Assembly: GCF_013378445.1 (NCBI RefSeq)
Contig: NZ_JABXYK010000004.1
Span: 1 to 64,000, forward strand
Length of the DNA: 64,000 nt
Origin: Mycoplana rhizolycopersici
GTDB taxonomy: Bacteria; Pseudomonadota; Alphaproteobacteria; Rhizobiales; Rhizobiaceae
Reading direction: 5' to 3'
Shown here: piece by piece, positions 45,456-61,981 of the stretch
How positions within the stretch are numbered: position 1 is the stretch's first letter
Layout of the letters: each line of letters starts with the position of its first letter
Program-made: the position numbers and the translations under genes
Notes under the pieces: generated by a model
Databases searched by the model: none
What the model was told of the DNA's origin: nothing
Seen by the model: the letters and a program-made list of their open reading frames with translations, nothing else

Positions 45456-45505
45456 TGCCATGTTGAGTGATTTGCGTATCACTAAACATATTGCTCAACA
45501 TGGCA
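45456..45505. promoter_or_regulatory. Nested inverted repeats upstream of the polyol-type operon
   Basis: Outer perfect 12-base arms TGCCATGTTGAG (45456-45467) and CTCAACATGGCA (45494-45505) enclose a second inverted repeat AGTGAT-N6-ATCACT (45466-45483). They lie 85-135 bases before the binding-protein start, in the 249-base gap after the LysR gene. An operator for a repressor of the operon is the simplest reading; a stem in the leader RNA is the alternative. Confidence 0.6.
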
Positions 45506-46915: not shown

Positions 46916-46995
46916 TTTCCTCCCGGTGGGGTCGTCCGGCGCAATCCGGGCGGCCCCGCCGCAAGCACGTTCCTCCGAGCTTCAAGGTAAAGTCC

Positions 46996-47964
46996 GTGAT
47001 CAATTCCGATACGACAATTCTGGAGAAGGAGCCGGAACGGGCCGCGGCCTCGACCCCGGCATCGCTCGCCCGGCGCATCGGCGGCCTTTCCGACCGCGCA
47101 ATCGCGTGGCTCTTCATCACGCCGACGATCGCGCTTCTTCTCGCCATCAACATCTTCCCGCTGATCTGGGCGATCCGCCTTTCCTTCACCAATTATCGCG
47201 CCAATCGGCCGAATGCGGTCCTGGAGAATGTCGGACTGCAGAACTACCAGCGCGTGCTGACGGATAGCGACATCTGGATCGCCATGCAGACGACGGCGCA
47301 TTTCGTCTTCTGGACGATCCTGCTGCAGACGCTGATCGGTTTCTCGCTCGCCTACCTGATCGACCGCAAGTTCCGCGGCCATGCCTTCTGGACGACCGTC
47401 ATCCTGATTCCGATGATGCTGTCGCCGGCGGTGGTCGGCAACTTCTGGCGGTTCCTCTACCAGCCGCAGATCGGGCTGTTCAACTATATCGTTTCATTCA
47501 TCACCGGCGTGCCGCCGTCCTCCTTCGAGATGCTCGGCTCGGTGTCGCTGGCACCCTGGTCGATCATCATCGTCGATACCTGGATGTGGACGCCATACGT
47601 GATGCTGATCTGCCTGGCAGGCCTTCGCTCCATTCCCGACTACATCTACGAGGCGGCCGAGGTCGACCGCGCCTCGGCCTGGCGGCAGTTCTGGTCGATC
47701 ACAATCCCCATGGCGCTGCCCTTCATCATGCTGGCGGTGCTGTTCCGCGGCATCGAGAACTTCAAGATGTTCGACATGGTGATGCTGCTCACCGGTGGCG
47801 GACCCGGCTCGACCACGGAAGTCGCCTCGATCACACTCAAGCGCGAGGCCTTCGAGAGCTGGCGGACCGGGCGTGCATCCGCCTTCGCCATCATCCTCTT
47901 CGTGGCCGTCTTCGGGCTCGCCAATATCTACGTCAAGGCACTGAACAGAGTGAAGCAGAGATGA
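46996..47964 (+). CDS. ABC transporter permease, carbohydrate type (MalF-like)
   Basis: 322 residues, GTG start at 46996 with AAGG upstream. Six membrane segments after a cytoplasmic N-terminus of about 35 residues; EAA loop EAAEVDRASAWRQFWSITIP. It belongs to the sugar permease group working with family-1 binding proteins. It overlaps the next permease by 4 bases. Confidence 0.93.
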   Translation: MINSDTTILEKEPERAAASTPASLARRIGGLSDRAIAWLFITPTIALLLAINIFPLIWAIRLSFTNYRANRPNAVLENVGLQNYQRVLTDSDIWIAMQTTAHFVFWTILLQTLIGFSLAYLIDRKFRGHAFWTTVILIPMMLSPAVVGNFWRFLYQPQIGLFNYIVSFITGVPPSSFEMLGSVSLAPWSIIIVDTWMWTPYVMLICLAGLRSIPDYIYEAAEVDRASAWRQFWSITIPMALPFIMLAVLFRGIENFKMFDMVMLLTGGGPGSTTEVASITLKREAFESWRTGRASAFAIILFVAVFGLANIYVKALNRVKQR

Positions 47965-48914
47965 GCAACGCCACCTCCGCCCATTCCGTCGTCGAGCCGA
48001 GTGCAACGACAAAGCGCATCGCCGGCATCATCGTCGTGCTCTATGCGATCGTCACCATGGTGCCGCTGGCCTGGATCTTCATGACCAGCTTCAAGTCGCC
48101 GCCGGACTCGATCAGCTACCCGCCGAAGCTCGTCTTCACGCCGACGCTTGAGGGCTATTGCAATCTCTTCACCACCCGCACGCGCCAGACGCCGGAGTAC
48201 ATCCAGTCGCTCGGTCCGCCTCAATCAACCTGCGACGAGATCACCCGCAGCCGCAACATGGTGATCGCCGGCCCCTCGAACTACTGGCCGCGCTTCACCA
48301 ATTCCATGGTGATCGCCTTCGGCTCGACCTTCCTCGCCGTCTTTCTCGGCACGCTCGCGGCCTATGGCTTCTCGCGCTTCCGCGTGCCGCTCGCCGATGA
48401 TCTCCTGTTCTTCATCCTGTCGACGCGGATGATGCCGCCGATCGCCGTCGCGATCCCGATCTACCTGATGTACCGCGAGCTCGGCCTGTCCGACACAGCA
48501 CTCGGCATGATCCTGCTCTATACGGCGGTCAACGTCTCGCTCGCCGTCTGGCTGCTCAAGGGCTTCATCGATGAGATCCCGCGCGAATACGAGGAGGCGG
48601 CGATGATCGACGGCTACACGCGCCTGCAGGCCTTCCGCAAGGTGGTGCTGCCGCAGGCGACGACGGGTATCGCGGCCACCGCCATCTTCTGCCTGATCTT
48701 CGCCTGGAACGAGTATGCCTTCGCGGTGCTTCTGACATCCGGTTCCGCCCAGACCGCACCGCCGTTCATCCCGACCATCATCGGCGAGGGCGGCATGGAC
48801 TGGCCCGCGGTCGCCGCCGGTACGACGATTTTCCTCGTCCCGATCCTGGTCTTCACCATTCTGCTCCGCAAGCAGCTCTTGCGCGGCATCACCTTCGGAG
48901 CGGTGCGCAAATGA
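47961..48914 (+). CDS. ABC transporter permease, carbohydrate type (MalG-like)
   Basis: 317 residues, start 47961. EAA loop EEAAMIDGYTRLQAFRKVVLP and typical PPIAVAIPIYLMYRELGLSD. Between the first and second membrane segments it has a periplasmic insertion with two Cys (EGYCNLFTTRTR and QSTCDEITRS), probably a disulfide loop facing the binding protein. It overlaps the small membrane protein gene by 4 bases. Confidence 0.93.
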   Translation: MSNATSAHSVVEPSATTKRIAGIIVVLYAIVTMVPLAWIFMTSFKSPPDSISYPPKLVFTPTLEGYCNLFTTRTRQTPEYIQSLGPPQSTCDEITRSRNMVIAGPSNYWPRFTNSMVIAFGSTFLAVFLGTLAAYGFSRFRVPLADDLLFFILSTRMMPPIAVAIPIYLMYRELGLSDTALGMILLYTAVNVSLAVWLLKGFIDEIPREYEEAAMIDGYTRLQAFRKVVLPQATTGIAATAIFCLIFAWNEYAFAVLLTSGSAQTAPPFIPTIIGEGGMDWPAVAAGTTIFLVPILVFTILLRKQLLRGITFGAVRK

Positions 48915-49117
48915 CGATCGAATCCACAATCACCACCAAGAGAAAACGCCCCTTCTTCCTCCGCCGCGGACCGATGGAAAATATCGCCACCGGCCTGATC
49001 GCGCTCGGTTTCCTGATGCTGTTCCAGCCGTTTGCGCTGGTGCTCTACACCTGGTCGCTGGTGACGCTGCTCGCCGGCACCCTCATGTTCATCGTCGTCT
49101 CGAAGTTTCCGGAGTAG
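48911..49117 (+). CDS. Small two-helix membrane protein of the ABC operon
   Basis: 68 residues overlapping the permease gene by 4 bases and ending 3 bases before the ATPase gene. A basic start (MTIESTITTKRKRPFFLRRG) is followed by two hydrophobic segments (IATGLIALGFLMLFQPFALV; WSLVTLLAGTLMFIVVSK). Tight coupling shows it belongs to the transporter. Rhizobial glycerol-type ABC operons with two ATPases also carry a small membrane protein; whether this is the same family is not certain. Confidence 0.78.
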   Translation: MTIESTITTKRKRPFFLRRGPMENIATGLIALGFLMLFQPFALVLYTWSLVTLLAGTLMFIVVSKFPE

Positions 49118-49120
49118 GCA

Positions 49121-50218
49121 ATGGCGGAGATCAGGGTTGAAAACCTGCGCAAGCAGTTCGGCGATTTCGCCGCGGTGGAGGATTCCACCTTCACCGTGCA
49201 GGACGGCGAGTTCCTGGCGTTGCTCGGCCCGTCCGGCTGCGGCAAGACGACGACGCTGCGCATGATCGCAGGCCTTGAGTTGCCGACCAGCGGCAAGATC
49301 CTGCTCGACGGCGAGGACGTAACGTTCAACCGGGCGAGTGCACGCGACATCGCCTTCGTCTTCCAGCTCTTCGCGCTCTATCCGCATATGAACGTGCGCA
49401 GGAACATCGGCTTCCCTCTGCTCTCGCAAGGCGTGCCGAAGGCGGAGATCAGAAAGCGCGTCGAGGAGACCGCTCGGCTCCTGCAGATCAGCCATATCCT
49501 CGACCGCTCGGTCTCAGGCCTTGCCGGCGGTGACCGACAGCGCGTGGCGCTCGGCCGCGCCATCGTGCGGCGGCCGAAATGTTTCCTGATGGACGAGCCG
49601 CTCGGCACACTCGATGCCGAGTTCCGCGAGGTGATGGTGCATGAACTGCGCGAGTTGCACAACCGCATCCACGCGACCACGGTTTATGTCACCCACGACC
49701 AGCACGAGGCGATGGCCATGGCCGACAAGATCGCGGTGATGAACCACGGCGTCATCGAGCAGTACGGCACGCCGCAAGAGATCTACAACCGCCCGGCCTC
49801 GATGTATGTCGCGGATTTCATCGGCTCGCCGCCGATGAATTTCTTGCGCTTCCGCTCGGGCCTGGAGAACGGTGCGACCAGCGTGACGGTCGGCGAGGTG
49901 GCGATCCGCGTACCGCAGGTACATGCCGCGCGCGAGCCCGGCGAGCTCGCCCTTGGCGTCCGCCCCGAGCATGTCCGCTTCAGCGACGGCGCTCCCTTGC
50001 GCGGCGCAGTCTATGGCAGCGAGTATCTCGGCACCAACCAGATCGTTTCGGTCGAGACGGCGCAGGGCATGGTCAAGGCGCGCGTTGCGGCGAACCGGGG
50101 TTTTGCCATCGGCGAGACGGTCGGGCTTGAGCTCGACAGCGAGAAGCTGTCGCTGTTCGATTGCGCCTCGGGCAAGGCCGTCCCCTCGTCCCTCTATGCG
50201 GAGGCCCGTCATGGCTGA
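49121..50218 (+). CDS. ABC transporter ATPase 1, with altered signature motif
   Basis: 365-residue UgpC/MalK-class ATPase. Walker A GPSGCGKTTT, Q-loop FVFQLFALYPH, Walker B CFLMDEPLGTLD and H-loop YVTHDQHEAM are normal. The ABC signature reads LAGGDRQRVALG instead of LSGGQ. TOBE-type C-terminal region from about 240. It overlaps a second ATPase gene by 8 bases, so the transporter probably uses an ATPase heterodimer. Confidence 0.93.
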   Translation: MAEIRVENLRKQFGDFAAVEDSTFTVQDGEFLALLGPSGCGKTTTLRMIAGLELPTSGKILLDGEDVTFNRASARDIAFVFQLFALYPHMNVRRNIGFPLLSQGVPKAEIRKRVEETARLLQISHILDRSVSGLAGGDRQRVALGRAIVRRPKCFLMDEPLGTLDAEFREVMVHELRELHNRIHATTVYVTHDQHEAMAMADKIAVMNHGVIEQYGTPQEIYNRPASMYVADFIGSPPMNFLRFRSGLENGATSVTVGEVAIRVPQVHAAREPGELALGVRPEHVRFSDGAPLRGAVYGSEYLGTNQIVSVETAQGMVKARVAANRGFAIGETVGLELDSEKLSLFDCASGKAVPSSLYAEARHG

Positions 50219-51218
50219 AGTCACGCTTACCGACATCAGCAAGGCCTTCGGCGAAACCCAGGCCCTCAGCAATGTCAATCTGACCGTCCGCGACGGGGAA
50301 TTCGTCGTGCTGCTCGGCCCGACCGGGTCCGGCAAGACGACGACGTTGCGCCTGATTGCCGGTCTCGAGAAGCCGGATGCCGGCCGCGTAAGCATCGCGG
50401 GCCGCGACGTAGTCAGCGAGGCACCGGCAAGCCGCGATGTCGCCTTCGTCTTCCAGCAATATTCGCTCTATCCGCATCTGACGGTCTATGAAAACCTCGC
50501 CTTCCCGCTGCGCTCGCCCGCGCGTCGGCTGCCGGAGACCGAGATCGATGCCCGCGTTCGCGAGGTGGCGAAGATGGTGCGCATCGACCACAAGCTGGAA
50601 AACCGCTCCACCAAGCTTTCCGGCGGCGAGATGCAGCGCGTGGCGATCGGCCGGGCGCTGGTGCGCAAGCCGGCGATCTATCTGATGGACGAGCCGCTGT
50701 CCTCGCTCGATGCCAAGCTGCGCGGCGAATTGCGTCTCGAGTTGAAGCGCATCCAGAACGAGATCGGCTCGACGCTGCTCTACGTCACCCACGACCAGGT
50801 CGAGGCGATGACGATGGCAGATCGGATCGGCATCCTGGCCGGGGGCCGGCTGGTGCAGATCGGCACGCCCCGGGAAATCTACAGCAACCCGGCCAATCTC
50901 CACGTCGCCGCCCGGCTCGGCCAGCCGCATATAAACCTGATTCCGGAGGGCCTGCTCCCCGGTGGCAGCGCGCCGACTGGCACGAAGACGATCGGTGCCC
51001 GCACGGAGCATCTGGAAATCGTTCGCTCCGGGCAGGGCAATGCCGAGATCGACTGGATCGAACACCTCGGCGACCAGAACCACCTGCACATCAAGGTCGG
51101 CCAGCACAAGCTGGTGACGCTTGCCGATCCCTATCTTGCCATCGGCCGGGGCGACCGGATTGATCTGAAACTTCGCAACCCGCTCTATTTCGATGCCGGC
51201 GGGCAGCGGCTCACGTGA
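50211..51218 (+). CDS. ABC transporter ATPase 2
   Basis: 335 residues from ATG 50211. Walker A GPTGSGKTTT, signature LSGGEMQRVAIGRAL, Walker B IYLMDEPLSSLD, H-loop YVTHDQVEAM. C-terminal TOBE-type domain shorter than that of ATPase 1. Paired ATPase genes with two permeases resemble the rhizobial glycerol-type (GlpS/GlpT) arrangement. The DhaK-DhaL fusion follows 93 bases later. Confidence 0.93.
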   Translation: MAEVTLTDISKAFGETQALSNVNLTVRDGEFVVLLGPTGSGKTTTLRLIAGLEKPDAGRVSIAGRDVVSEAPASRDVAFVFQQYSLYPHLTVYENLAFPLRSPARRLPETEIDARVREVAKMVRIDHKLENRSTKLSGGEMQRVAIGRALVRKPAIYLMDEPLSSLDAKLRGELRLELKRIQNEIGSTLLYVTHDQVEAMTMADRIGILAGGRLVQIGTPREIYSNPANLHVAARLGQPHINLIPEGLLPGGSAPTGTKTIGARTEHLEIVRSGQGNAEIDWIEHLGDQNHLHIKVGQHKLVTLADPYLAIGRGDRIDLKLRNPLYFDAGGQRLT

Positions 51219-51311
51219 AGGTGTCCAGGCCGCGAGGCGTGGCTTTGCGAATGATCGTGAACTTTCAGCACGGCCCCTCGTTCAGGCCGGTGCAACGAAC
51301 GACAGGACGGG

Positions 51312-52979
51312 ATGGTCAGGATGAAGCATTTCTTCAACCGCAGGGAAGACATCGTCACCGAGGCGCTCGACGGCCTGCTGCTGTCGACGCCGGAAGGGCA
51401 ACTCGCGCGGCTCGATACCTATCCGGCGATCAAGGTGATCTTTCGCGCCGACTGGGACAAATCGAAGGTCGCCGTCATCTCCGGCGGCGGCGCTGGTCAT
51501 GAGCCTTCGCATGCCGGCTTCGTCGGCAAGGGCATGCTGACGGCTGCGGTCTCCGGTGAAATCTTCGCCTCGCCGAGCGTCGATGCGGTGCTGACGGCAA
51601 TCCGCGCCGTCACGGGCGCGGCCGGCTGCCTGCTGGTGGTGAAGAACTACACCGGTGACCGGCTGAACTTCGGCCTGGCCGCGGAAAAGGCGCGCGCGGA
51701 GGGTTTTAGGGTCGAGATGGTGATCGTCGCCGACGACATCGCCCTTCCCGACCTGCCGCAGCCCCGCGGCGTCGCGGGCACCTTGTTCATCCACAAGATC
51801 GCCGGCCACATGGCTGAGGCCGGCGAAGAACTGGAAGCGATAGCCGTGGCCACACGGGCTGCTGCTGCCGACATCGTCTCACTCGGCATGTCGCTCTCGA
51901 CCTGCTCGATTCCCGGGCAGGCGCATGAGGACCGGCTCGGCCCGAACGAAGGCGAGTTGGGTCTCGGCATTCACGGCGAGCCCGGCGCCGAGCGGATCGC
52001 CCTGCAGGAAGCGGTGGCGATCGTCGCCACGATGGTACAACGGCTTGACGGGATGATGCAGGCTGGCCGGCGCCACGCGCTTCTGATCAACAATCTCGGT
52101 GCTGTGCCGCCGCTCGAAATGGGCCTGATCACCAAAGCCGTGCTGGATTCGTCGCTGGCCGGTCGGGTTGATCTCATCATCGGTCCGGCTCCGCTGATGA
52201 CGGCGCTCAACATGAACGGGTTCTCGCTGTCGCTGATTGCGCTTGATGACGCCCGCGTGGCGGCCTTGACCTCGCCCGTTGCGCCGCGCGCATGGGTGAA
52301 ACCTGTGCGACGGCATGCGCTCTCCGTGTTGCCGGCGCCGAAGGCAGAAACGGCCATTCCGGCAGGTTCGCACGGGCGGAGCGAGGTTACCGGAGATGCC
52401 GCCGCCGCCGCCCGGGTTATCGAAGTGGTCTGCAACAGGCTGGTTTCGCTCGAGACGGATCTCAACCGTCTCGACGCGCGTACAGGGGACGGCGACACCG
52501 GGTCGACGGTTGCGACCGGAGCCCGTAGCGTGCTCGCGCTCTTGCCGAGACTGCCGCTCGATGACCCGGCCGCCACCTGCGGCGCGATCGGCGACACGCT
52601 GGGCATCAGCATGGGCGGTTCCAGCGGGGTGCTGCTGTCGATATTCTTCACGGCTGCGGGAAAGGAGCTGGCCGATGGCGGCGACTTGGCAAAGGCGCTC
52701 TCGGCCGGGCTGGAACGAATGACCTTCTACGGCGGCGCCGTGCCGGGCGATCGCACCATGGTCGATGCACTCGCGCCGGCACTTCGGGCTCTGGCTGGCG
52801 AAGGTCTTGCAGCCGCCGCCGCAGCGGCGCGGCAGGGGGCAGTTGCGACCGGATCCATGATGCGGGCTAAGGCGGGCCGTTCCGCCTATCTCGCCGCGCG
52901 TGATCTGGAGGGCGTGCCGGATCCCGGAGCAGAAGCCGTCGCGGCAGCTTTCGAGGCGGCGGCAGGCGCTGGCGTCTGA
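51312..52979 (+). CDS. Fused DhaK-DhaL kinase, ATP-dependent type
   Basis: 555-residue dihydroxyacetone-kinase-family enzyme phosphorylating a short keto-sugar. The DhaK half (1-330) contains KVAVISGGGAGHEPSHAGFV, LLVVKNYTGDRLNFGLA and substrate-binding His221 in GIHGEPG. The DhaL half (about 360-550) has the Mg-ATP aspartates LDARTGDGDTGST and the cap GISMGGSSGVLLSIFF. Start could also be ATG 51321. Fused DhaKL is the ATP-using form; homologues act on dihydroxyacetone or on erythrulose. The operon also encodes a separate PEP-type set. Confidence 0.9.
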   Translation: MVRMKHFFNRREDIVTEALDGLLLSTPEGQLARLDTYPAIKVIFRADWDKSKVAVISGGGAGHEPSHAGFVGKGMLTAAVSGEIFASPSVDAVLTAIRAVTGAAGCLLVVKNYTGDRLNFGLAAEKARAEGFRVEMVIVADDIALPDLPQPRGVAGTLFIHKIAGHMAEAGEELEAIAVATRAAAADIVSLGMSLSTCSIPGQAHEDRLGPNEGELGLGIHGEPGAERIALQEAVAIVATMVQRLDGMMQAGRRHALLINNLGAVPPLEMGLITKAVLDSSLAGRVDLIIGPAPLMTALNMNGFSLSLIALDDARVAALTSPVAPRAWVKPVRRHALSVLPAPKAETAIPAGSHGRSEVTGDAAAAARVIEVVCNRLVSLETDLNRLDARTGDGDTGSTVATGARSVLALLPRLPLDDPAATCGAIGDTLGISMGGSSGVLLSIFFTAAGKELADGGDLAKALSAGLERMTFYGGAVPGDRTMVDALAPALRALAGEGLAAAAAAARQGAVATGSMMRAKAGRSAYLAARDLEGVPDPGAEAVAAAFEAAAGAGV

Positions 52980-52994
52980 CGGGCGGAGGGATGG

Positions 52995-53609
52995 GTGGAC
53001 GGGGATCGTTCGACACTTGCCGGTCTGATCGAGGCGTGCCGCGAGGCGATCGCCGCGAATGCGGAGCACCTTTGCGCGCTCGATCGGGCGATCGGAGACG
53101 GCGATCACGGCACGAATATGAAAAGAGGCTGCGAGGCGGTCTATGCGGAGCGGGGCGAACTGGATGCGATGCCGCTGCCGCGCGCGCTTGAACGCATCGG
53201 AATGACGCTTGTGATGACGGTGGGCGGCGCTGCCGGCCCGCTCTACGGAACGTTGCTGATCGAGATGGGCCGCAGGATGGAGGGCGGGCGCGCCAAAGAC
53301 AGGCTGGCGCATGCGCTGCCGGAGGCTGTGGAAGCGGTCGCGCGGCGCGGCCGCTCGCAGGCAGGCGAAAAAACCTTGCTCGACGTTCTTTACGCGGTTC
53401 AGTCAGAGGTACTAAAGCAGGAGACGCCGGCGCGGATTGCGGCAGCCGCCGGCATGGCTGCGCGGGATACGATCGCGATGAAGGCCATGCGCGGGCGTGC
53501 CTCCTTCCTGGGCGACAGGTCGATCGGACACATGGATCCCGGTGCCTGCAGTTGCGCACTTTTGACGGATACGATCTGTCGCTACATCGGGGAGTCCCAA
53601 CTCGCATGA
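52995..53609 (+). CDS. dhaL: DhaL, nucleotide-binding subunit of PEP-type dihydroxyacetone kinase
   Basis: 204 residues, GTG start at 52995 preceded by GGAGGG. ADP/Mg-binding aspartates in LDRAIGDGDHGTNM, then VGGAAGPLYGTLLIEM and DPGACSCALLTDTI. In PEP-type kinases DhaL holds ADP, which is rephosphorylated by DhaM rather than exchanged. DhaM follows with a 4-base overlap. Confidence 0.92.
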   Translation: MDGDRSTLAGLIEACREAIAANAEHLCALDRAIGDGDHGTNMKRGCEAVYAERGELDAMPLPRALERIGMTLVMTVGGAAGPLYGTLLIEMGRRMEGGRAKDRLAHALPEAVEAVARRGRSQAGEKTLLDVLYAVQSEVLKQETPARIAAAAGMAARDTIAMKAMRGRASFLGDRSIGHMDPGACSCALLTDTICRYIGESQLA

Positions 53610-54004
53610 AGGTCAATGGTGCACATGTCGGCATCGTCATCGTGTCTCACTCGCCCCTGATCGCCCGCGGAACGGCGGACATGGTGCGTCAGATGGTCGG
53701 CGACAGCGTGCCGCTCGCCTGGTGCGGCGGCAACGCCGACGGCGGTCTCGGCACCAATGTCGGGGATATCGTGGAGGCGATCTCTTCGGCCTGGTCCGAA
53801 GCCGGCGTAGCGGTCTTCGTCGATCTCGGCGGGGCGGAGACGAACAGCGAAATGGCAATCGAAATGCTCGAACCGGCGCGGGCGCGGCGCGTGCTGATCT
53901 GCAATGCGCCACTGGTGGAAGGCGCGGTGATGGCCGCGGCCGAGGCGTCCGGCGGAGCGGCTCTCGCCCGCGTGGTAGCGACGGCGGAGGAGCTTTCTCC
54001 ATGA
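53606..54004 (+). CDS. dhaM: DhaM-type phosphotransferase EIIA
   Basis: 132 residues from ATG 53606: a single mannose-type EIIA domain with phospho-His15 in GIVIVSHSPLIARG. It passes phosphate from HPr to DhaL-bound ADP. Unlike E. coli DhaM it is not fused to HPr and EI; these are separate genes immediately downstream. Confidence 0.92.
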   Translation: MKVNGAHVGIVIVSHSPLIARGTADMVRQMVGDSVPLAWCGGNADGGLGTNVGDIVEAISSAWSEAGVAVFVDLGGAETNSEMAIEMLEPARARRVLICNAPLVEGAVMAAAEASGGAALARVVATAEELSP

Positions 54005-54345
54005 CGGGCCGGCGCGTGAGCCAACAGGAGGGTTCGTTGCACACGGACCGTGCCGTCTGCGCGCGGGTCGAGGTGACCCACGATATCGGCCTGCATGCCA
54101 GGCCCTCGGTCGCCTTCACGCGTCTTGCCAAGTCGTTTCCCTGCACGATCGGCGTCGAGGTCAACGACGGCGGCGTGTGGCTGAATGGCAAGAGCATCGT
54201 CAAGATCATGGGCGCCCGTATCCGCAAGGGCTTTGTCCTTTCGATCAAGGCGGACGGTGCCGGCGCAGACGAGGCGGTGCGGGCGCTGTGCGCCCTCGTC
54301 GAGCGCAATTTCGATGAGGAGAAGCCGCATGCCCGAAGCGCTTAG
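54001..54345 (+). CDS. HPr-like phosphocarrier protein
   Basis: HPr domain with phospho-His in VTHDIGLHARPSVAFTRLA and the GKSIVKIMGA segment after it. Starting at ATG 54001 (4-base overlap with dhaM) gives 114 residues and a nonstandard N-terminal extension. A TTG at 54037 preceded by AGGAGGG would give 102 residues, closer to normal HPr, and may be the true start. It links enzyme I to DhaM in the operon's own phosphorelay. Confidence 0.9.
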   Translation: MTGRRVSQQEGSLHTDRAVCARVEVTHDIGLHARPSVAFTRLAKSFPCTIGVEVNDGGVWLNGKSIVKIMGARIRKGFVLSIKADGAGADEAVRALCALVERNFDEEKPHARSA

Positions 54346-55939
54346 GCTGACAGGGCGTGGTGCCTCGCCGGGGCGCGCTCGAGGTCCTGCTCATGTCGCT
54401 GCCGCCGTTGCGCCGAACGGACACGGGGAGGTTCCGACCGACCGCGATGTCGAGAGGCTGGCCGATGCCGTCAACGGCACGATAGACCGGCTGCGCGTGC
54501 TTGCGGAGACCGCAGACCTGCAGAGCGGCGCCATTCTGGAATTCCAGATCGAGATGCTGCGAGATCCGGTTATCGTCAGGCCGAGCTTTGCCCGCATCCG
54601 CGCGGGCGAGAGCGCTTCACGTGCCTGGGTCGCTTCGATGGACGAATATGTCCACGGCTTCGAGGCAGCCGAGGACGAACACATCCGGGCCAGAAGCAGC
54701 GACATGCTGGACATTCGCAACCAGGTGCTCGACATGCTGCTCGGTCAGGTGCCCGCGGACTTTCCGAAAGGCTCGGTATTCGTCGGCCGCGATATCGCGC
54801 CCAGCCAGTTTCTGGCGCACGACTGGTCTGCAGGCGGAGCCATCGTCCTTTCCGGCGGCAGTACGGCCAGTCACGTGGCCATGCTCGCACGAAGCCGCGG
54901 CGTGCCGATGGTGGTCGGGCTCGGCGAGTTTGGGATCGAAGACGGGACGAGGCTTTTTGTCGACGGTGAGGAGGGCCTGGTCGAGCGCGACGAAGGAACG
55001 TTGCGACTTGCCGCCAACGAGAACGCGGCCTCCATCGGCGCTGCGGCATCGTCGCCTCGTGGTCACGCACCGCCTGAACCGGCGCGGACGGCAGACGGCG
55101 TGCTTGTCCGGGTGATGGCGAACATCGACCATCCTGCCGAGTTGCGCGGGCTTTCGCCCTCGGCCTGCGACGGCATCGGACTCTTTCGCACCGAGTATCT
55201 GATGACATCGCCCGGCGATTTCGACGACGAAGACCGGCAGGCACGCTACTATTCCGAGGTGCTGGCCTGGGCCGAGGGCGCGCCGGTAACGATCCGCCTT
55301 TTCGATTTTGGCGGCGACAAGCCACTTCCGCGCACCTCCGTGGACCCGGCCTCCTATCTCGGCCTGCGCGGTATCAGGCTGCTGCTGGCCCGGCCCGACA
55401 TTTTGCGGGTGCAGGTGCGCGCCCTGATGCGCGCCGCGCGGATTGGCAATCTGCAGGTACTGGCGCCGATGGTGACGTCGCCTGACGAGCTTGCGCAGAC
55501 CATCGAGATTTTCGCCGATGAAGCCGAAGATCTGGCGATGCGGGGCATCGCGCATGGTATGCCGCCGCTCGGCATCATGCTGGAAGTGCCGGCTGCGGCG
55601 CTGATGCCGGAGACTTTTGCCGACGCGGCGTTCTTCTCATTCGGGACCAACGATCTCGCGCAGTATCTCACAGCCGCGGCACGTGGCGAGGCAGCCGTTT
55701 CGCACCTGCACGATACCTCCATTGCCGCGACCATGCGGTTCCTCTCGCACACCGTTCCCGCAGCGCTGGCAACCGGCAAGCCGGTCGGGCTGTGCGGTGA
55801 CCTGGCGACGGAGCCGAGCCTGCTGCCAGAGCTCCTGTCGTTCGGCTTCCGTGCGTTTTCGATGCCGCCGGCGCGCATGGCGCTTGTGCGCGAGACGCTT
55901 TCGCGCTTCAACGCGGATGGCAGCGAGGCCGGGGGCTGA
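54329..55939 (+). CDS. Phosphotransferase enzyme I
   Basis: 536 residues from ATG 54329, overlapping the HPr gene by 17 bases, with GAGGAG upstream. It takes phosphate from PEP and transfers it to HPr. Phospho-His in GGSTASHVAMLARSRGVP, PEP-binding barrel with GIGLFRTEYLMTS, FDFGGDKPLP, SFGTNDLAQYL and active Cys in GLCGDLA. There is no N-terminal GAF domain, so it is not the nitrogen-PTS type (PtsP) common in alphaproteobacteria. Confidence 0.93.
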   Translation: MPEALRLTGRGASPGRARGPAHVAAAVAPNGHGEVPTDRDVERLADAVNGTIDRLRVLAETADLQSGAILEFQIEMLRDPVIVRPSFARIRAGESASRAWVASMDEYVHGFEAAEDEHIRARSSDMLDIRNQVLDMLLGQVPADFPKGSVFVGRDIAPSQFLAHDWSAGGAIVLSGGSTASHVAMLARSRGVPMVVGLGEFGIEDGTRLFVDGEEGLVERDEGTLRLAANENAASIGAAASSPRGHAPPEPARTADGVLVRVMANIDHPAELRGLSPSACDGIGLFRTEYLMTSPGDFDDEDRQARYYSEVLAWAEGAPVTIRLFDFGGDKPLPRTSVDPASYLGLRGIRLLLARPDILRVQVRALMRAARIGNLQVLAPMVTSPDELAQTIEIFADEAEDLAMRGIAHGMPPLGIMLEVPAAALMPETFADAAFFSFGTNDLAQYLTAAARGEAAVSHLHDTSIAATMRFLSHTVPAALATGKPVGLCGDLATEPSLLPELLSFGFRAFSMPPARMALVRETLSRFNADGSEAGG

Positions 55940-55940
55940 G

Positions 55941-56339
55941 ATGGCACGCGAGACAAGCGACGATGCAACGGTCGCCTACAAGGCGATCCTGGCTGATATC
56001 ATCGACAGTCGGCCTTCCGGCACCCGCCAGCGACTGGCCGCTGCCTTGGGCAAGCACCGCAGCTTCGTCACGCAGATCACGAGTCCAGGCTACCCGACCC
56101 CCCTGCCCGCCCGCCACCTGGCGACAATCTTCCGGGTTTGCCACATGAGCCCGCCGGAGCAGGAACGGTTTCTGACCGCCTACGAGCAGGCGCACCCCGG
56201 CAAGCTGCCCGAGGTCGCCGCCACCGACGGCCTGCGAACATTGTCGCTGATGGTGCCGGATCTGGGGGACGAACGGAAGAACAGGCAATTCGACGAGGCG
56301 GTGTCGGAGTTCATCGCAAGGCTTGGCAGCCTGCTTTAG
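55941..56339 (+). CDS. Small helix-turn-helix-like protein of the Dha operon
   Basis: 132 residues, one base after enzyme I. The N-terminal part (TRQRLAAALGKHRSFVTQIT) resembles a lambda-repressor-type helix-turn-helix, and HLATIFRVCHMSPPEQERFL a following helix pair. The C-terminal half is helical and unassigned. I do not recognise a named family. Its place inside the kinase operon suggests local regulation or a structural link to the phosphorelay. Confidence 0.65.
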   Translation: MARETSDDATVAYKAILADIIDSRPSGTRQRLAAALGKHRSFVTQITSPGYPTPLPARHLATIFRVCHMSPPEQERFLTAYEQAHPGKLPEVAATDGLRTLSLMVPDLGDERKNRQFDEAVSEFIARLGSLL

Positions 56340-56420
56340 GCGAGCGCTGGCCGGCGTATGGCTACCGCTTGAGGTGGAGGGCGGGCTTGATCTAGGATCG
56401 TGCCGGGGCGGAGGAGGAGC

Positions 56421-57419
56421 ATGAAGAAGTTCATGAACCGGGCGGAGCGGATCGTTGTCGAGAGCCTAGAGGGTTTCGTGCGGGCGCACGACGACGTGCT
56501 GACGTTCGGCAACGGCAGCCGCAATGTCCGCCGTCGCCAGCTGAAACCCGGGAAGGTTGCCGTCATTTCCGGAGGCGGTGCTGGCCATGAGCCGATGCAT
56601 GCGGGGTTGGTAGGGCACGGCATGCTCGATGCGGCCTGTGTCGGCCATGTCTTCACCTCGCCGACGCCGAACCAGATCCTTGACGCGATCGCGGAATGCG
56701 ATACCGGCGCGGGCGTGCTGCTGATCGTCAAGAACTACGACGGCGACGTGATGAATTTCGACATGGCGGCCGAAATGGCGATCGAAGCCGGCCACCGCAT
56801 CGAGACGGTCATCGTCAACGACGACATCGCGGCCTATGATGCCGCGCGCAGTTCGGGACGGCGCGGCGTCGCAGGCACGCTGATCGTCGAGAAGACGGTG
56901 GGGGCAGCGGCCGAGGCCGGTCACTCGCTTGAGGAACTGAAGGCGCTCGGTACACGGACGGTCGCTGCGACGCGCAGCATGGGGGTCGCGCTCCGGGGGG
57001 CAACGGTGCCGGAAACCGCCCGCCAGACCTTTTCGCTCGGGCCGGACGAGATGGAGCTGGGGGTCGGCATTCATGGCGAGCCGGGCCGGTCGCGGATCGC
57101 GTTTCGGGATGCGGATGCAATCGCGGCTTTGGTCTGTGAGGAGCTCATCACCGAGCTCCCGTCTCCGCGAGACGGCCGGATATTGCTGTTCGTCAACGGC
57201 TTCGGCGGAACGCCGGTTTCCGAACTCTATCTGATGTATGGTGCCGTTCGAAGGCTGGTGGAGGCGCGGGGCCTTGTCGTTGCCCGATCGTTGGTCGGTG
57301 CCTACGTCACGTCGCTCGACATGGCAGGACTTTCCGTGACGCTATCGGCACTGGACGCCGATCGCATGAATTTCTGGGATGCGCCGGTGGCCGCGCCGGC
57401 GCTTCGCTGGGGGTGTTGA
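56421..57419 (+). CDS. dhaK: DhaK, substrate-binding subunit of PEP-type dihydroxyacetone kinase
   Basis: 332 residues from ATG 56421 with GGAGGAG upstream. Single DhaK domain with KVAVISGGGAGHEPMHAGLV, LLIVKNYDGDVMNFDMA and substrate-binding His218 in GIHGEPG, the same number as in E. coli DhaK. Together with the separate DhaL, DhaM, HPr and EI it forms a complete PEP-dependent set. Last gene of the operon, facing the convergent GntR gene 26 bases away. Confidence 0.93.
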   Translation: MKKFMNRAERIVVESLEGFVRAHDDVLTFGNGSRNVRRRQLKPGKVAVISGGGAGHEPMHAGLVGHGMLDAACVGHVFTSPTPNQILDAIAECDTGAGVLLIVKNYDGDVMNFDMAAEMAIEAGHRIETVIVNDDIAAYDAARSSGRRGVAGTLIVEKTVGAAAEAGHSLEELKALGTRTVAATRSMGVALRGATVPETARQTFSLGPDEMELGVGIHGEPGRSRIAFRDADAIAALVCEELITELPSPRDGRILLFVNGFGGTPVSELYLMYGAVRRLVEARGLVVARSLVGAYVTSLDMAGLSVTLSALDADRMNFWDAPVAAPALRWGC

Positions 57420-57445: not shown

Positions 57446-58168
57446 CTACCTGTTGTAGAGCGAGCGTGACCGTTCCAGGTGCTTCAGGATGGCAGCCTCG
57501 GCGCCGTCCGCATCGTTGGCGGCGAGGCGAGCAAGAATCTCTTCGTGCTCGACCAGCGTGAATTTCTCCTTGCCGGTCCAGATCAGCATGTCTGTGTGAT
57601 ATTCCCTCAGCCAGGCCAGCATCGCTTCGCTGACGGCGATGTAGATGGGATTGCCGGAAATCTGCGCTATGCGTGTGTGGAACTGCATGTCGGCGGAGAT
57701 GAACGCTTCGGCGTCTCCGAGCGACGCGCGCTGTTGCTCGATGATGTCATGGAGCTCGGCGATATCGGTCGGCCTTGCCCGTTGCGCCGCCTCCCGCGCC
57801 ATGCCGCGTTCGAAGAAGATGCGCGCGCTTTTCAGGTGCTCGAGGCTGTCGGTCGATTGCGACAGCATGATCTTGGCGGTCAGATCGACCTGACGGAAGA
57901 TCGACCGCGCGGTGACTTTCTGCACCTTGGCGCGCTCGCCATGCGAGATGTTGACGAGCCCCATGTTGGCAAGCGACTGCATGGCCTCGCGAATGGCAGG
58001 CCTGCCGACGCCGAAGCGCTCCATGAGAACCCGCTCCGAAGGCATTTCGTCGCCGGGCTTCAATTCGCCGGACGTGATCATCCGCTCCAGACGGTCGAAC
58101 ACCTCGTCGGAAAGCTTCCGCCGAACAATCGGTTCGCTGACCTGGATCATGGCGTCTCGCTGTCTCAT
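57446..58168 (-). CDS. GntR-family regulator (FadR/FCD type)
   Basis: 240 residues from ATG 58168 with GGGAGG upstream. N-terminal GntR winged helix (LERMITSGELKPGDEMPSER, LMERFGVGRPAIREAMQSLA) and a C-terminal FCD ligand domain with metal-type residues (DMQFHTRIAQISGNPIYIA, EHEEILARLAA). Divergent from the RuBisCO-like gene; the shared 260-base gap carries an imperfect palindrome also found before the ApnO-like gene. Probable repressor of the sugar-acid genes. Confidence 0.93.
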   Translation of the reverse strand: MRQRDAMIQVSEPIVRRKLSDEVFDRLERMITSGELKPGDEMPSERVLMERFGVGRPAIREAMQSLANMGLVNISHGERAKVQKVTARSIFRQVDLTAKIMLSQSTDSLEHLKSARIFFERGMAREAAQRARPTDIAELHDIIEQQRASLGDAEAFISADMQFHTRIAQISGNPIYIAVSEAMLAWLREYHTDMLIWTGKEKFTLVEHEEILARLAANDADGAEAAILKHLERSRSLYNR

Positions 58169-58352
58169 ATTTCGCCTCCCCCTGCGGCGCCGCCCGTCAT
58201 CACCGCGGAGGCGCTGCAACACATTCGATGTGCGCCTGGCTGACCCTGAATCGACATCGACCTTGAGGGGCCAAGCGCTAGCACTTTCGCAGACGGACGG
58301 CAAAGGACAGCGGTGGATATCCGGCCGTCCGGAAATTTTCCGTTGCAGAAAT

Positions 58353-58428: not shown

Positions 58429-59679
58429 ATGATTACGCTGACCTATCGCATCGAGACGCCCGGCAGTGTCGCGGCGATGGCGGACAAGATCGCCAGTGAC
58501 CAGTCGACCGGCACGTTTGTCCCGGTTCCCGGAGAGACCGAGGAGTTGAAGCAGCGCGTTGCGGCGCGCGTTCTCGCGATCCGCCCACTCGAAGAGACCT
58601 ATGCGCCGACATGGCCGGAAGTGGCCCCCGGTGTGAAGCTGAACCGGGCCGATGTCGATATCGCCTTTCCTCTGGACGCGATCGGAACGGATCTCACCGC
58701 CCTGATGACGATCGCCGTCGGGGGCGTTTATTCGATCAAGGGGATGACCGGTATCCGGGTCGTCGACATGAAGCTGCCGGAAGCTTTCCGCGGCGCCCAT
58801 CCCGGGCCGCAGTTCGGGATCGAGGGGAGCCGTCGTCTGACGGGTGTCGAGAAGCGCCCGATCATCGGGACCATCGTCAAGCCCGCCCTCGGGCTGCGTC
58901 CGCGCGAGACTGCCGAGCTTGTGGGCGAGTTGATCGAGTCCGGCGTGGACTTCATCAAGGACGACGAGAAACTGATGAGCCCCGCCTACTCGCCGCTTGC
59001 CGAGCGAGTGGCGGCGATCATGCCGCGCATCCTCGACCACGAGCAGAAGACGGGCAAGAAGGTGATGTATGCCTTCGGCATCTCGCATGCCGACCCTGAT
59101 GAAATGATGCGCAATCACGACCTCGTCCTGAAGGCGGGCGGCAATTGCGCCGTCGTCAACATCAACTCGATCGGCTTCGGCGGCATGAGCTTTCTGAGGA
59201 AGCGCTCGGGTCTGGTGCTGCATGCCCACCGCAATGGCTGGGACATCCTGACGAGGGCTCCGGGCGCCGGCATGGACTTCAAGGTCTATCAGCAGTTCTG
59301 GCGTCTCCTCGGCGTCGACCAGTTCCAGATCAACGGCATCCGGATCAAGTACTGGGAGCCGGACGAAAGTTTCGTTGAATCGTTCAAAGCCGTCAGCGCA
59401 CCGCTTTTCGACTCCTCCGATTGTCCCTTGCCGGTTGCTGGTTCCGGCCAGTGGGGCGGGCAGGCGCCGGAGACCTACCAGCGGACCGGTCGCACGACCG
59501 ATCTGCTCTACCTCTGTGGCGGCGGCATCGTCAGCCATCCAGGTGGACCGGCGGCAGGCGTGCGCGCGGTGCAGCAGGCGTGGCAGGCTGCGGTCGCGGA
59601 TATTCCGCTTGAGGAATATGCGAAGGACCACCCCGAACTTGCCGCCTCGCTTGCAAAGTTTGGCGGCGGCAAGGAGTAA
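58429..59679 (+). CDS. RuBisCO-like protein, probable 3-oxo-isoapionate-4-phosphate-cleaving enzyme
   Basis: 416 residues (MITLTYRIETPGSVAAM), a form IV RuBisCO homologue. It keeps Lys151 (GTIVKPALGL), Lys177 and the acidic pair Asp179/Glu180 (VDFIKDDEKL), so a carbamylated metal site is plausible. The loop-6 GK motif of true RuBisCO is missing (NGIRIKYWEPDE). Next to a DUF1537 kinase and an ApnO-like gene, it fits the D-apionate pathway. There, RuBisCO-like proteins act on 3-oxo-isoapionate 4-phosphate as decarboxylase (OiaX) or transcarboxylase/hydrolase (OiaT); which one cannot be decided here. The GAGGAGGAG site is 14 bases before ATG. Confidence 0.85.
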   Translation: MITLTYRIETPGSVAAMADKIASDQSTGTFVPVPGETEELKQRVAARVLAIRPLEETYAPTWPEVAPGVKLNRADVDIAFPLDAIGTDLTALMTIAVGGVYSIKGMTGIRVVDMKLPEAFRGAHPGPQFGIEGSRRLTGVEKRPIIGTIVKPALGLRPRETAELVGELIESGVDFIKDDEKLMSPAYSPLAERVAAIMPRILDHEQKTGKKVMYAFGISHADPDEMMRNHDLVLKAGGNCAVVNINSIGFGGMSFLRKRSGLVLHAHRNGWDILTRAPGAGMDFKVYQQFWRLLGVDQFQINGIRIKYWEPDESFVESFKAVSAPLFDSSDCPLPVAGSGQWGGQAPETYQRTGRTTDLLYLCGGGIVSHPGGPAAGVRAVQQAWQAAVADIPLEEYAKDHPELAASLAKFGGGKE

Positions 59680-59684
59680 CTGGA

Positions 59685-61019
59685 ATGAGCAGCCCCCTCG
59701 TCAGCTACTATGGCGATGATTTTACCGGTTCGGCCGACGTGATGGAATCGCTCGCCGCGAACGGCATCGAGACGGTCCTGTTTCTCGGGATCCCAGGCGC
59801 CGGCATCCTCGAGCGCTTCAAGGATTGCCGTGCGATCGGCATTGCCGGCACCTCTCGCAGCGAGACGCCGGAATGGATGCAGGAGCACCTCGTTCCTGCT
59901 TTCGGCTGGCTGAAGGCGCTCGGAGCGGCGATCTGCCATTATAAAGTGTGCTCCACTTTCGATTCCGGCCTGCGCGTCGGCAACATCGGCAAGGCGATCG
60001 AGATCGGCAAGGCCCTGTTCGGTCAGCCGGCCGTGCCAGTGATCGTGGGCGCTCCGCAACTGCGGCGCTACACGGCCTTCGGCCATCTCTTCGCCGCCTA
60101 TCAGGGGCAGGTCTATCGCATCGACCGCCATCCAGTGATGAGCCGCCATCCGGTCACGCCGATGGACGAGGCCGACCTTGCGCTGCATCTCGGAAAACAG
60201 ACAAACCTCCCCGTCGCGCTCGCCGATCTGGCGACGATCATGGCTCCCGATGCCGATGCGCGTGTCGACGCTATCGTTGCCGGTGATGCCGGTATCCTCA
60301 TCCTGGATGTGGATTCGGCCGAGTCCCAGGCGGCGGCGGGCCGGCAACTGTGGCGGCTCAAGCAGGACGGCGGCTATTTCGTCGCGGGCTCGTCCGGGGT
60401 GGAATATGCCTTGCTCAGCGCCTGGCGCCAGGGCGGCGTGATCGGCAACCCGGTCGAATTTGCCGAGCCCGGCAAGGTCGAGCGGTTGGCCGTTGTATCC
60501 GGCAGCGTCTCGCCTACGACCGAAAGGCAAATCCGCACGGCGATCGCAGACGGGTTCCAGGGCATCGACCTCGACCCTGTCTCGCTCGTCGGCGAAAGCG
60601 GCGATAGGGCGATCGATGAAGCCGTGGCGTCGGGCCTCGAGGGGCTGAAATCAGGGCGGAGCGTTCTGCTGCACACCGCACTCGGACCGTCCGCCGATCG
60701 CGGATCGGAAATCGACCGCCTGCCGGGCGCCCGCCATCGGCTCGGCCAGGCGCTGGGAACCATCCTTCGCCGCCTCGTCGAGGTCGAAGGTCTCTCGCGC
60801 GCCGTCATTGCCGGCGGTGACACGTCGAGCCATGCCCTGAAGGAACTGCGCGTCGAGGCTTTGACGACGCTTCTGCCGCTGCCCCAGACGCCCGGCTCGC
60901 CGCTGTGCACCGCCCACGGCAGCCATGCGCCGACGGACGGCCTGCAGATCGCGCTGAAGGGCGGCCAGATCGGCACAGATGGCTATTTCGCGCAGATCCG
61001 TGATGGAAGGAGAGCTTGA
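59685..61019 (+). CDS. oiaK: DUF1537 four-carbon/sugar-acid kinase, probable 3-oxo-isoapionate kinase
   Basis: 444-residue ATP-dependent kinase of the OtnK/DUF1537 family. N-terminal YYGDDFTGSADVMESLA binds substrate; ATP-binding motifs VIAGGDTSSHALKEL and ALKGGQIGTDGYF are near the C-terminus. It starts 5 bases after the RuBisCO-like gene. The neighbours suggest 3-oxo-isoapionate as substrate; other DUF1537 kinases use threonate- or erythronate-derived compounds. Confidence 0.85.
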   Translation: MSSPLVSYYGDDFTGSADVMESLAANGIETVLFLGIPGAGILERFKDCRAIGIAGTSRSETPEWMQEHLVPAFGWLKALGAAICHYKVCSTFDSGLRVGNIGKAIEIGKALFGQPAVPVIVGAPQLRRYTAFGHLFAAYQGQVYRIDRHPVMSRHPVTPMDEADLALHLGKQTNLPVALADLATIMAPDADARVDAIVAGDAGILILDVDSAESQAAAGRQLWRLKQDGGYFVAGSSGVEYALLSAWRQGGVIGNPVEFAEPGKVERLAVVSGSVSPTTERQIRTAIADGFQGIDLDPVSLVGESGDRAIDEAVASGLEGLKSGRSVLLHTALGPSADRGSEIDRLPGARHRLGQALGTILRRLVEVEGLSRAVIAGGDTSSHALKELRVEALTTLLPLPQTPGSPLCTAHGSHAPTDGLQIALKGGQIGTDGYFAQIRDGRRA

Positions 61020-61100
61020 AGGAGAATTTCGGCATCGCGGCACGGCTGGACCGGGTCAGGGTGCCTCAACTTTACCACGCATGTGATGGCATGGTGATTG

Positions 61101-61114
61101 ACTCATCATACCAG
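61101..61114. promoter_or_regulatory. Second copy of the GntR-type element
   Basis: ACTCATCATACCAG differs from the copy at 58359-58372 at one base. It lies 40 bases before the ApnO-like start codon, in the 134-base gap after the kinase gene, suggesting a second regulated promoter. Confidence 0.65.
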
Positions 61115-61153
61115 TTGGGCTACGAAATCAAAAACACCTTGAGGTGAGGAAAC

Positions 61154-61981
61154 ATGACTGCAATTGCTCTCTTCGGCGCCGGCGGAAAAATGGGTTACCG
61201 GCTCGCCAAGAACCTGAAAGGCTCGCGTTTTGACGTGCGCCATGTCGAGGTCAGTGACGCCGGCAAGGCGCGCCTGCAGGACGATCTCGGCCTTTCGTGC
61301 GTCCCTGCCGATGAAGCACTGAACGGCGCCGAGGTCGTGATCCTCGCCGTGCCGGACACGGCGATCGGTAAGGTTGCGGCCGGCATCGTCGACAAGCTGA
61401 AGCCCGGCACCATGGTCGTGGCGCTCGACGCCGCAGCCCCGTTCGCGGGCCATCTGCCGGAGCGCGCCGACCTGACCTACTTCGTCACCCACCCCTGCCA
61501 TCCGCCGATCTTCAACGACGAGACCGATCCGGCCGCCAAGCGCGACTTCTTCGGCGGCATCGCCGCCAAGCAGCACATCGTCTCCGCCCTGATGCAGGGT
61601 CCGGAAGAAGCCTACGCGCTGGGCGAGGAAGTCGCCAAGGTCATCTGGGCGCCGGTCATGCGCTCGCACCGCGTCACCGTCGAGCAGATGGCGATGCTGG
61701 AGCCGGGTCTGTCCGAAACCGTCTGCGCCTCGCTCCTGGTCGTCATGCGCCAGGCGATGGACGAATGCGTCCGCCGCGGCGTTGCCAAGGAAGCCGCCCG
61801 CGACTTCCTGCTCGGCCACATGAACGTGCTCGGCGCGGTCATCTTCGAAGAGACGCCCGGCGTCTTCTCGGATGCCTGCAACAAGGCCATCGAGTTCGGC
61901 ATTCCCGCGCTGATGCGCGACGACTGGAAGAACGTTTTCGAACCTCAGGAGATCGCCGAAAGCATTCGTCGCATCACCTGA
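61154..61981 (+). CDS. apnO: D-apionate oxidoisomerase-like NAD(P)-dependent protein
   Basis: 275 residues; start after GAGGTGAGG. N-terminal Rossmann motif IALFGAGGKMGYRLAKNL, then VILAVPDTAIGKVA and THPCHPPIFNDETDP, ending in an all-helical phosphogluconate-dehydrogenase-like domain (VEQMAMLEPGLSETVCASLL). This is the architecture described for D-apionate oxidoisomerase, which makes 3-oxo-isoapionate. Assignment rests on pattern recognition plus the adjacent DUF1537 kinase and RuBisCO-like gene. Confidence 0.75.
   Translation: MTAIALFGAGGKMGYRLAKNLKGSRFDVRHVEVSDAGKARLQDDLGLSCVPADEALNGAEVVILAVPDTAIGKVAAGIVDKLKPGTMVVALDAAAPFAGHLPERADLTYFVTHPCHPPIFNDETDPAAKRDFFGGIAAKQHIVSALMQGPEEAYALGEEVAKVIWAPVMRSHRVTVEQMAMLEPGLSETVCASLLVVMRQAMDECVRRGVAKEAARDFLLGHMNVLGAVIFEETPGVFSDACNKAIEFGIPALMRDDWKNVFEPQEIAESIRRIT

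Follow-up and report, generated by a model that had tools for sequence, protein, structure and literature searches.

Organization of the operon

Seven intact genes, all on the + strand, occupy positions 51321-57419 of the stretch of DNA analysed here, from the soil bacterium Mycoplana rhizolycopersici (64,000 nucleotides (nt), referred to as the window). They encode a fused DhaK-DhaL, a separate DhaL, DhaM, HPr, enzyme I (EI), a small helix-turn-helix (HTH)-like protein and a separate DhaK. A first-pass annotation had read them as an operon, encoded in one direction, in which an ATP-type dihydroxyacetone kinase adjoins a phosphoenolpyruvate (PEP)-type DhaK/DhaL/DhaM set with its own HPr and EI, and the strand calls, the intact active-site residues and the gene content agree with this description. 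Directly upstream of the fusion gene, on the same strand, lies a six-gene ATP-binding cassette (ABC) importer that the annotation had not included. As the importer precedes the kinase genes, the likely transcription unit comprises 13 genes (45590-57419), which we infer to be read as a single transcript. The genes and the predicted operator are as follows.

45590-46915, + strand: solute-binding protein (SBP_bac_1) of the ABC importer; 32% identity to GlpV over 160 residues
46996-47964, + strand: ABC permease 1; 29% identity to GlpP
47961-48914, + strand: ABC permease 2; 32% identity to GlpQ
48911-49117, + strand: small conserved protein of 68 residues, without a Pfam or NCBIfam family
49121-50218, + strand: ABC ATPase 1; 37% identity to GlpT
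50211-51218, + strand: ABC ATPase 2; 38% identity to GlpT and GlpS
51321-52979, + strand: fused DhaK-DhaL (Dak1 and Dak2), ATP-type dihydroxyacetone kinase; 1un9 is the best solved relative
52995-53609, + strand: DhaL of the phosphotransferase system (PTS) type, ADP-binding subunit; over the TIGR02365 cut-off
53606-54004, + strand: DhaM, EIIA-Man domain only; over the TIGR02364 cut-off
54001-54345, + strand: HPr; over the TIGR01003 cut-off
54329-55939, + strand: enzyme I without a GAF domain; three EI Pfam domains
55941-56339, + strand: small HTH protein, predicted operon regulator of an unnamed family; no Pfam or NCBIfam match
56421-57419, + strand: DhaK of the PTS type; over the TIGR02363 cut-off
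45462-45487, no strand: predicted operator GTTGAGT-N12-ACTAAAC, one mismatch to the consensus, 102 nt 5' of the binding-protein gene

A start at 51321 fits the fusion better than one at 51312. The tight junctions that had been described hold for most of the genes: 15 nt separate the fusion from DhaL, the DhaL-DhaM and DhaM-HPr junctions are 4-nt overlaps, HPr and EI overlap by 17 nt, and a single nucleotide lies between EI and the HTH gene. They do not hold between the HTH gene and DhaK (81 nt); the binding protein and permease 1 (80 nt) and ATPase 2 and the fusion (102 nt) are also widely spaced, and all other junctions overlap or measure at most 15 nt. Scans for promoters and terminators gave no more matches than shuffled sequence.

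Nearly all of 80 named relatives have the kinase block with its genes in this order, and the order of the importer genes is shared with the relatives as well. Ratios of non-synonymous to synonymous substitution (dN/dS) against R. subbaraonis and Rhizobium sp. GN54 range from 0.005 to 0.30 for 12 operon genes, with 0.08 and 0.17 for the fusion; the 68-residue gene was left out, and the binding protein was covered over 165 and 74 codons only. Given this recurrence and the low ratios, the block is not a chance arrangement, and the codon comparisons show here that its genes are under purifying selection.

Two types of kinase and their phosphorelay

The fused dihydroxyacetone kinase 1un9, which we take to be the Citrobacter freundii enzyme, is the solved structure most similar to the fusion (534 bits over 546 residues). 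For the separate DhaK and DhaL the best solved matches are PTS-type DhaK and DhaL, and DhaM best matches an uncharacterised EIIA, followed by a PTS-type DhaM. All three separate subunits pass the cut-offs of their NCBIfam models, with 423 against 406 bits for DhaK (TIGR02363), 191 against 138 bits for DhaL (TIGR02365) and 141 against 98 bits for DhaM (TIGR02364). Residues that are presumably catalytic, metal-binding or phosphorylated were compared in alignments that each include the window protein as one row. His56, Asp109 and His218 of DhaK are invariant in 81 rows, the Asp and His metal-ligand positions of DhaL and the His of DhaM in 80 rows each, and the catalytic residues checked in the fusion in 62 rows. 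From the sequences we infer PEP as the phosphoryl donor of the separate DhaK, DhaL and DhaM, and ATP as that of the fusion.

EI is closest to full-length enzyme I, and its three EI Pfam domains without a GAF domain are as the first-pass annotation had stated. Its seven active-site residues are invariant in 74 rows, and the His15 and Ser46 positions of HPr in 79 rows. Two model scores speak against these assignments: in a near full-length match the fusion falls short of the cut-off of the NCBIfam dak_ATP model TIGR02361 (537 versus 575 bits), and EI falls short of that of TIGR01417 (302 versus 342 bits).

The relay had furthermore been proposed to be private to the operon, and this holds in part. 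The operon has its own EI and HPr. The genome encodes two HPr domains and three proteins with an EI C-terminal domain, namely the operon EI, a PtsP-like open reading frame of 755 residues with an N-terminal extension, and a 933-residue frame of dikinase size, the last two being labelled by size and sequence. Among the 80 named relatives, the EI gene is present at 73 loci and missing from six, the contig of locus L075 beginning too late for a call, so that 6 of 79 assessable loci have no EI of their own. These six (L012, L014-L017 and L020) come from five Phyllobacterium and one Rhizobiales isolate. Each of their genomes holds two other EI-type proteins, of about 775 and 660 residues by open frame, and the one that was translated (genome G005) is an HPr-EI fusion. 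As the genomes without it have other proteins of this type, the local EI is usual yet replaceable. The relay is present as the alphaproteobacterial exception that it had been held to be, but this exception has already been published: in the part of the account of Comas et al. (2008, PMC2405797) that concerns them, M. loti and B. japonicum have operons that join genes for EI, HPr and dihydroxyacetone kinase, and the origin of their EI and HPr is not traceable there.

Exchange of kinase modules behind one importer family

The two kinases were followed through the 80 named loci and a sample of 397 genomes of the order; the markers for co-residence were the small HTH gene, for the PEP set, and the fusion at E up to 1e-100. 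At the named loci the fusion lies in the operon in 64 cases and not in 14, two being impossible to judge because of a late contig start. Within the order, 74 genomes encode the HTH protein and 63 the fusion. We fetched 74 HTH loci from 73 genomes (one genome has two, and the window's own was excluded), of which 36 combine a full importer with the PEP set and 14 a full importer with both the PEP set and the fusion. The rest are 16 PEP sets without an importer (less certain for L183 and L186, where the contig begins close by), five PEP sets at contig ends, two of them with the fusion, and three HTH genes alone. Fifty fusion loci outside HTH operons were fetched as well. A full importer without a PEP set is found at 31 of these, one of which (L250) is a contig-end part of the combined operon of genome G194; two have a partial importer at a contig end, and two (L263 and L266) hold importer, fusion and PEP genes or their remnants. 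At the remaining 15 the importer was not found; five of these fusions share less than 48% identity with that of the window, and L272 is cut at a contig end.

The same importer family is thus found before a PEP set only, before an ATP-type fusion only, or before both. Both markers occur in 17 of the 397 genomes and lie side by side in all 17 (the G194 fusion is cut by contig ends), and importer, fusion and PEP set are again together at L301, outside the order. Because the modules alternate behind one importer family and adjoin wherever both are present, this pattern favours a single substrate and two donors rather than two substrates.

In the fusion tree, 21 upstream-type fusions form one clade. 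The fusion of L263 falls among the ATP-only fusions, and a single clade with the window-type fusions is rejected (approximately unbiased test, p-AU 5e-39); given this exclusion, fusion and PEP set appear to have been paired at least two times. L263 and L266 hold PEP sets decaying 3' of an ATP-type importer and fusion, and provide a snapshot of donor replacement. In L263 (genome G122, whose PEP set is one without an HTH gene) the HTH domain is lost, EI reads into what appears to be the end of the HTH protein and the DhaK sequence is divided between two frames, and in L266 (genome G087) only pieces of DhaL and DhaK are left of the PEP set.

Several results weigh against the reading of one substrate and repeated pairing. 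Three fusions located downstream of DhaK may join the upstream clade (p-AU 0.60), so that at least three independent pairings are not borne out and repeated recruitment is weaker than it first appeared. Fusion and HTH marker do not co-occur beyond expectation (17 genomes against 11.7 expected, Fisher p 0.077). In an importer tree from a quick search, 29 ATP-only rows form one clade with L263 and L266, apart from the rest; importers are therefore split by kinase type, and their specificity could differ between the types.

The small HTH protein and its predicted operator

The small HTH protein has 132 residues in the window and 132-144 across its family, with 39 positions invariant in an alignment of 38 rows that includes the window. 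No Pfam or NCBIfam family matches it at an E-value of 0.001, and the Pfam matches up to E = 1 are all at chance level. An AlphaFold2 model (mean predicted local distance difference test (pLDDT) score 83.9) consists of a five-helix N-terminal part and a separate C-terminal helix. The PEP set is present at 71 of the 74 fetched HTH loci. In a class-wide sample, the protein occurs in 10 of the 336 further genomes, all ten outside the order, and PEP-set genes adjoin it in every one of the ten; in L295 these genes are rearranged, and in L298 DhaK lies on the opposite strand. In L295 the HTH gene follows DhaK, DhaL, DhaM, EI and a second DhaM match, and the importer was not found. The gene is labelled 'hypothetical protein' in both public annotations examined, including that of Rhizobium sp. 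T1470, where a complete combined operon lies on an annotated plasmid.

The small HTH protein is probably a dedicated regulator of the operon. The LysR gene at 44426-45340 was considered for this role and rejected, as only weak matches to it occur near four loci and it is not conserved with the operon. Two observations count against the small protein as regulator. Its top Foldseek matches, phage repressors and XRE proteins among them, are weak (best E 0.39, none at 0.001), and at three of the 74 loci (L184, L185 and L196) the HTH gene stands without dha genes and with no site upstream. Neighbours of these lone genes, among them a glycogen branching enzyme, a luciferase-like monooxygenase, nitrogenase-type proteins, a periplasmic binding protein and DUF1028, show no common theme.

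A search for shared inverted repeats in the 300 nt 5' of the importer identified GTTTAGT-N12-ACTAAAC, which is present exactly in 23 of 51 PEP-type promoters (the window's, with one mismatch, is among the 51) and in none of 32 ATP-type promoters. With up to two mismatches and a spacer of 11-13 nt, it is found in 43 of the 51, in one of the 32, and before dhaL in 10 of 15 PEP operons without an importer, against means of 0.10, 0.05 and 0.00 in dinucleotide-shuffled sequence; the single ATP-type promoter is that of L250, where a contig end truncates a combined operon. Since the 51 promoters, many from close relatives, are the set in which the motif was discovered, which lessens their weight, the importer-less operons, a genome-wide scan and the loci outside the order are the fairer tests. 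The exact pattern occurs in 28 of the 397 genomes, from 12 genera and with one site each, and all 28 are HTH-positive (Fisher p 2.7e-23). Twenty-six of these sites lie in the fetched operon loci, 57-346 nt 5' of the first gene match; the other two (G137 and G359) are on separate contigs, the operon contig ending early in both genomes. Outside the order, a site within two mismatches precedes the importer at 5 of 10 loci. The window has one site within three mismatches, at 45462-45487 (chance mean 0.14).

Some counts go against a general association of site and operon. Even at three mismatches, 7 of the 51 and 4 of the 15 PEP promoters have no site, and 2 of the 32 ATP-type promoters have one. 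The other 5 of 10 loci outside the order show no site within two mismatches in the fetched stretch. As we read the counts, the exact pattern in reverse is present in 6 of the 397 genomes, and in the window's own genome the reversed control gives two matches at two mismatches against one real site.

The importer promoters of the ATP type (within L228-L271) carry another palindrome, TGAGG-N6-CCTCA, in 22 of 32 cases, and it is found in none of the 51 PEP-type and none of the 15 importer-less promoters. It is perhaps a LacI-type operator; a LacI gene lies upstream of an annotated ATP-type operon. As the window has the PEP-type site before its importer and the TGAGG palindrome belongs to ATP-type operons, the combined operon appears to place the fusion under the predicted regulator of the PEP set.

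Importer and likely substrate

The importer has the make-up of a glycerol importer but is only distantly related to it, with 29-38% identity to GlpS, GlpT, GlpP and GlpQ and 32% to part of GlpV. The glp glycerol importer of Rhizobium (pRL9, strain 3841) likewise comprises two ATPases, two permeases, a small protein and a binding protein, but differs in gene order and is coupled to glpK and glpD. This operon was used as the reference in place of the second importer cluster of L012, the gene order of which is not that of glp. The 68-residue protein (48911-49117) is conserved between the permease and ATPase genes, and a small gene is also present in glp-type importers. Solved relatives of the binding protein are only distant sugar-binding proteins and give no clue to the ligand.

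The substrate is most likely dihydroxyacetone, since the kinase subunits pass their dihydroxyacetone kinase models and no further sugar enzyme, such as an isomerase or aldolase, is encoded in the operon in the window or in the annotated relatives L283 and L284. No recurring gene indicative of a substrate, such as a dehydrogenase partner, was found among 20 neighbours at nine lone-HTH or importer-less loci. A link to apulose or apionate was also considered and rejected: of the 80 loci, some of them truncated, L007 (R. subbaraonis) alone has OiaX/OiaK-like genes after the operon, and the apionate genes of the window sit past a divergent GntR/FCD gene (57446-58303). That apionate cluster (58477-61981) encodes OiaX, a RuBisCO-like 3-oxo-isoapionate-4-phosphate decarboxylase, over its NCBIfam cut-off, an OiaK-like kinase below its cut-off and a 275-residue NAD-binding protein without an NCBIfam assignment.

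Elsewhere in the genome (contig C34, L102:6877-8970, - strand), a 698-residue protein fuses a SorC-type regulator (Sugar-bind domain) to a full DhaK. It adjoins a separate DhaL, a second DhaK, a GolD/DthD-type dehydrogenase and a ribose-type ABC ATPase, and the locus perhaps serves a tetritol pathway in which the regulator has a kinase domain of its own.

Comparison with known systems

In E. coli, the DhaK, DhaL and DhaM subunits use PEP and are served by a dedicated regulator, DhaR; the same chemistry, with a dedicated regulator, is what we propose for the window. E. coli DhaM contains HPr and EI-like domains in one chain, and the NCBIfam model PRK11377 spans all three of its domains, whereas the window has separate genes and a full-length EI.

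The B. diazoefficiens genes blr3566-blr3577 are given in the relevant part of PMC5017801 as one co-regulated cluster of importer, PEP set and a hypothetical protein before DhaK. This cluster shares the order importer, DhaL, EIIA, HPr, EI, hypothetical protein and DhaK with the window, but the list in that part contains no fused DhaK-DhaL. The corresponding parts of the Mesorhizobium and Bradyrhizobium accounts (PMC2405797, PMC5017801) leave the small protein and the promoter site uninterpreted. Both kinase types are found together, for one substrate, in the dha operon of Klebsiella pneumoniae, with an ATP-dependent kinase I (dhaK1) and a PEP-dependent kinase II (dhaKLM) (PMC12821955). This operon differs in its regulator, the enhancer-binding protein DhaR, and the pertinent part of that paper mentions no importer, HPr or EI of its own; it reports kinase I as inactive and contributing nothing, which tells against an active ATP route in a paired arrangement.

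With the PEP part known from Mesorhizobium and Bradyrhizobium and the two kinase types from Klebsiella, as far as the cited parts of these papers go, the operon is not new in kind. Its enzymes are of known kinds, and the overlooked part is the probable regulator with its predicted operator. This predicted pair, associated through the co-distribution of site and HTH gene, is the most novel part of the locus. Beyond the papers cited, titles and abstract openings in the literature searched, with subscription journals mostly outside this scope, show nothing on the operon or the site.

A model of the operon and its alternatives

The reading that we favour, with moderate confidence, is that the genes form one operon that serves to take up and phosphorylate one short ketose, dihydroxyacetone being the most likely, with two donors and under the control of the HTH protein. 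The ABC importer would bring the ketose into the cell. On the PEP route, the phosphoryl group would pass from PEP through EI, HPr, DhaM and DhaL-ADP to the sugar bound by DhaK, and the DhaK-DhaL fusion would add a route from ATP. Both kinases would make one product, which would be dihydroxyacetone phosphate if the sugar is dihydroxyacetone. The small HTH protein would bind GTTTAGT-N12-ACTAAAC before the importer and so control the operon, and it probably senses the state of DhaK or DhaL, as the comparison with DhaR suggests. More tentatively, these small proteins might form a new family of phosphorelay-linked repressors or activators that have no sensor of their own, act at one site per genome and sense the supply of substrate and of PEP by contact with DhaK, DhaL or a further protein of the relay.

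The same architecture might instead serve another short ketose or triose, such as L- or D-erythrulose or glyceraldehyde, a possibility that we hold to be real if rather improbable. Kinases of the DhaK family presumably act on several such sugars, and the distance of the importer from the glycerol importer leaves room for this. An isomerase or aldolase would, however, be expected for a C4 product, and none accompanies the operon where its gene content was inspected; the dihydroxyacetone kinase models passed by DhaK, DhaL and DhaM argue in the same direction. The first-pass annotation had suggested that fusion and PEP set phosphorylate two different keto-sugars, or that one kinase senses for the other. 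Two substrates would suit a genome with four further DhaK-type genes, in which specialization within the family is plausible, and the sorting of importers by kinase type. We nevertheless find this improbable, as one importer stands before both kinases here, fusion-only and PEP-only operons share its family, and the two kinases adjoin in every genome with both markers. A sensory DhaK has a precedent in DhaQ of L. lactis, a non-catalytic DhaK-like sensor, and the SorC-type regulator fused to DhaK is encoded in this very genome. Both DhaKs of the operon, however, keep the catalytic residues His56, Asp109 and His218 in every row compared, and with 258 bits (separate DhaK) and 210 bits (fusion) both score far below the cut-off of the DhaQ model TIGR02362 (413 bits), so that sensing by either is very improbable.

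It is also conceivable, though unlikely, that the promoter site belongs to another regulator and that the HTH protein has a different role, for instance in assembly of the phosphorelay. The three lone HTH genes without an upstream site and the weak fold match would fit such a role. Against it, exact sites are confined to HTH-positive genomes, and the ATP-only promoters carry their own palindrome in place of the site. The LysR gene of the window does not travel with the operon, and among the neighbours that were scanned no further regulator gene came up repeatedly.

On the favoured reading of one ketose and two donors, PEP and ATP kinase modules that alternate or are doubled behind one importer family in rhizobia and their relatives amount to a natural experiment on the choice of donor for one sugar. 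The analysis also names a small candidate regulator, together with a predicted operator that can be tested directly. If the proposed control is true, the relay that phosphorylates the sugar would also set the levels of the importer and of the ATP-type kinase.

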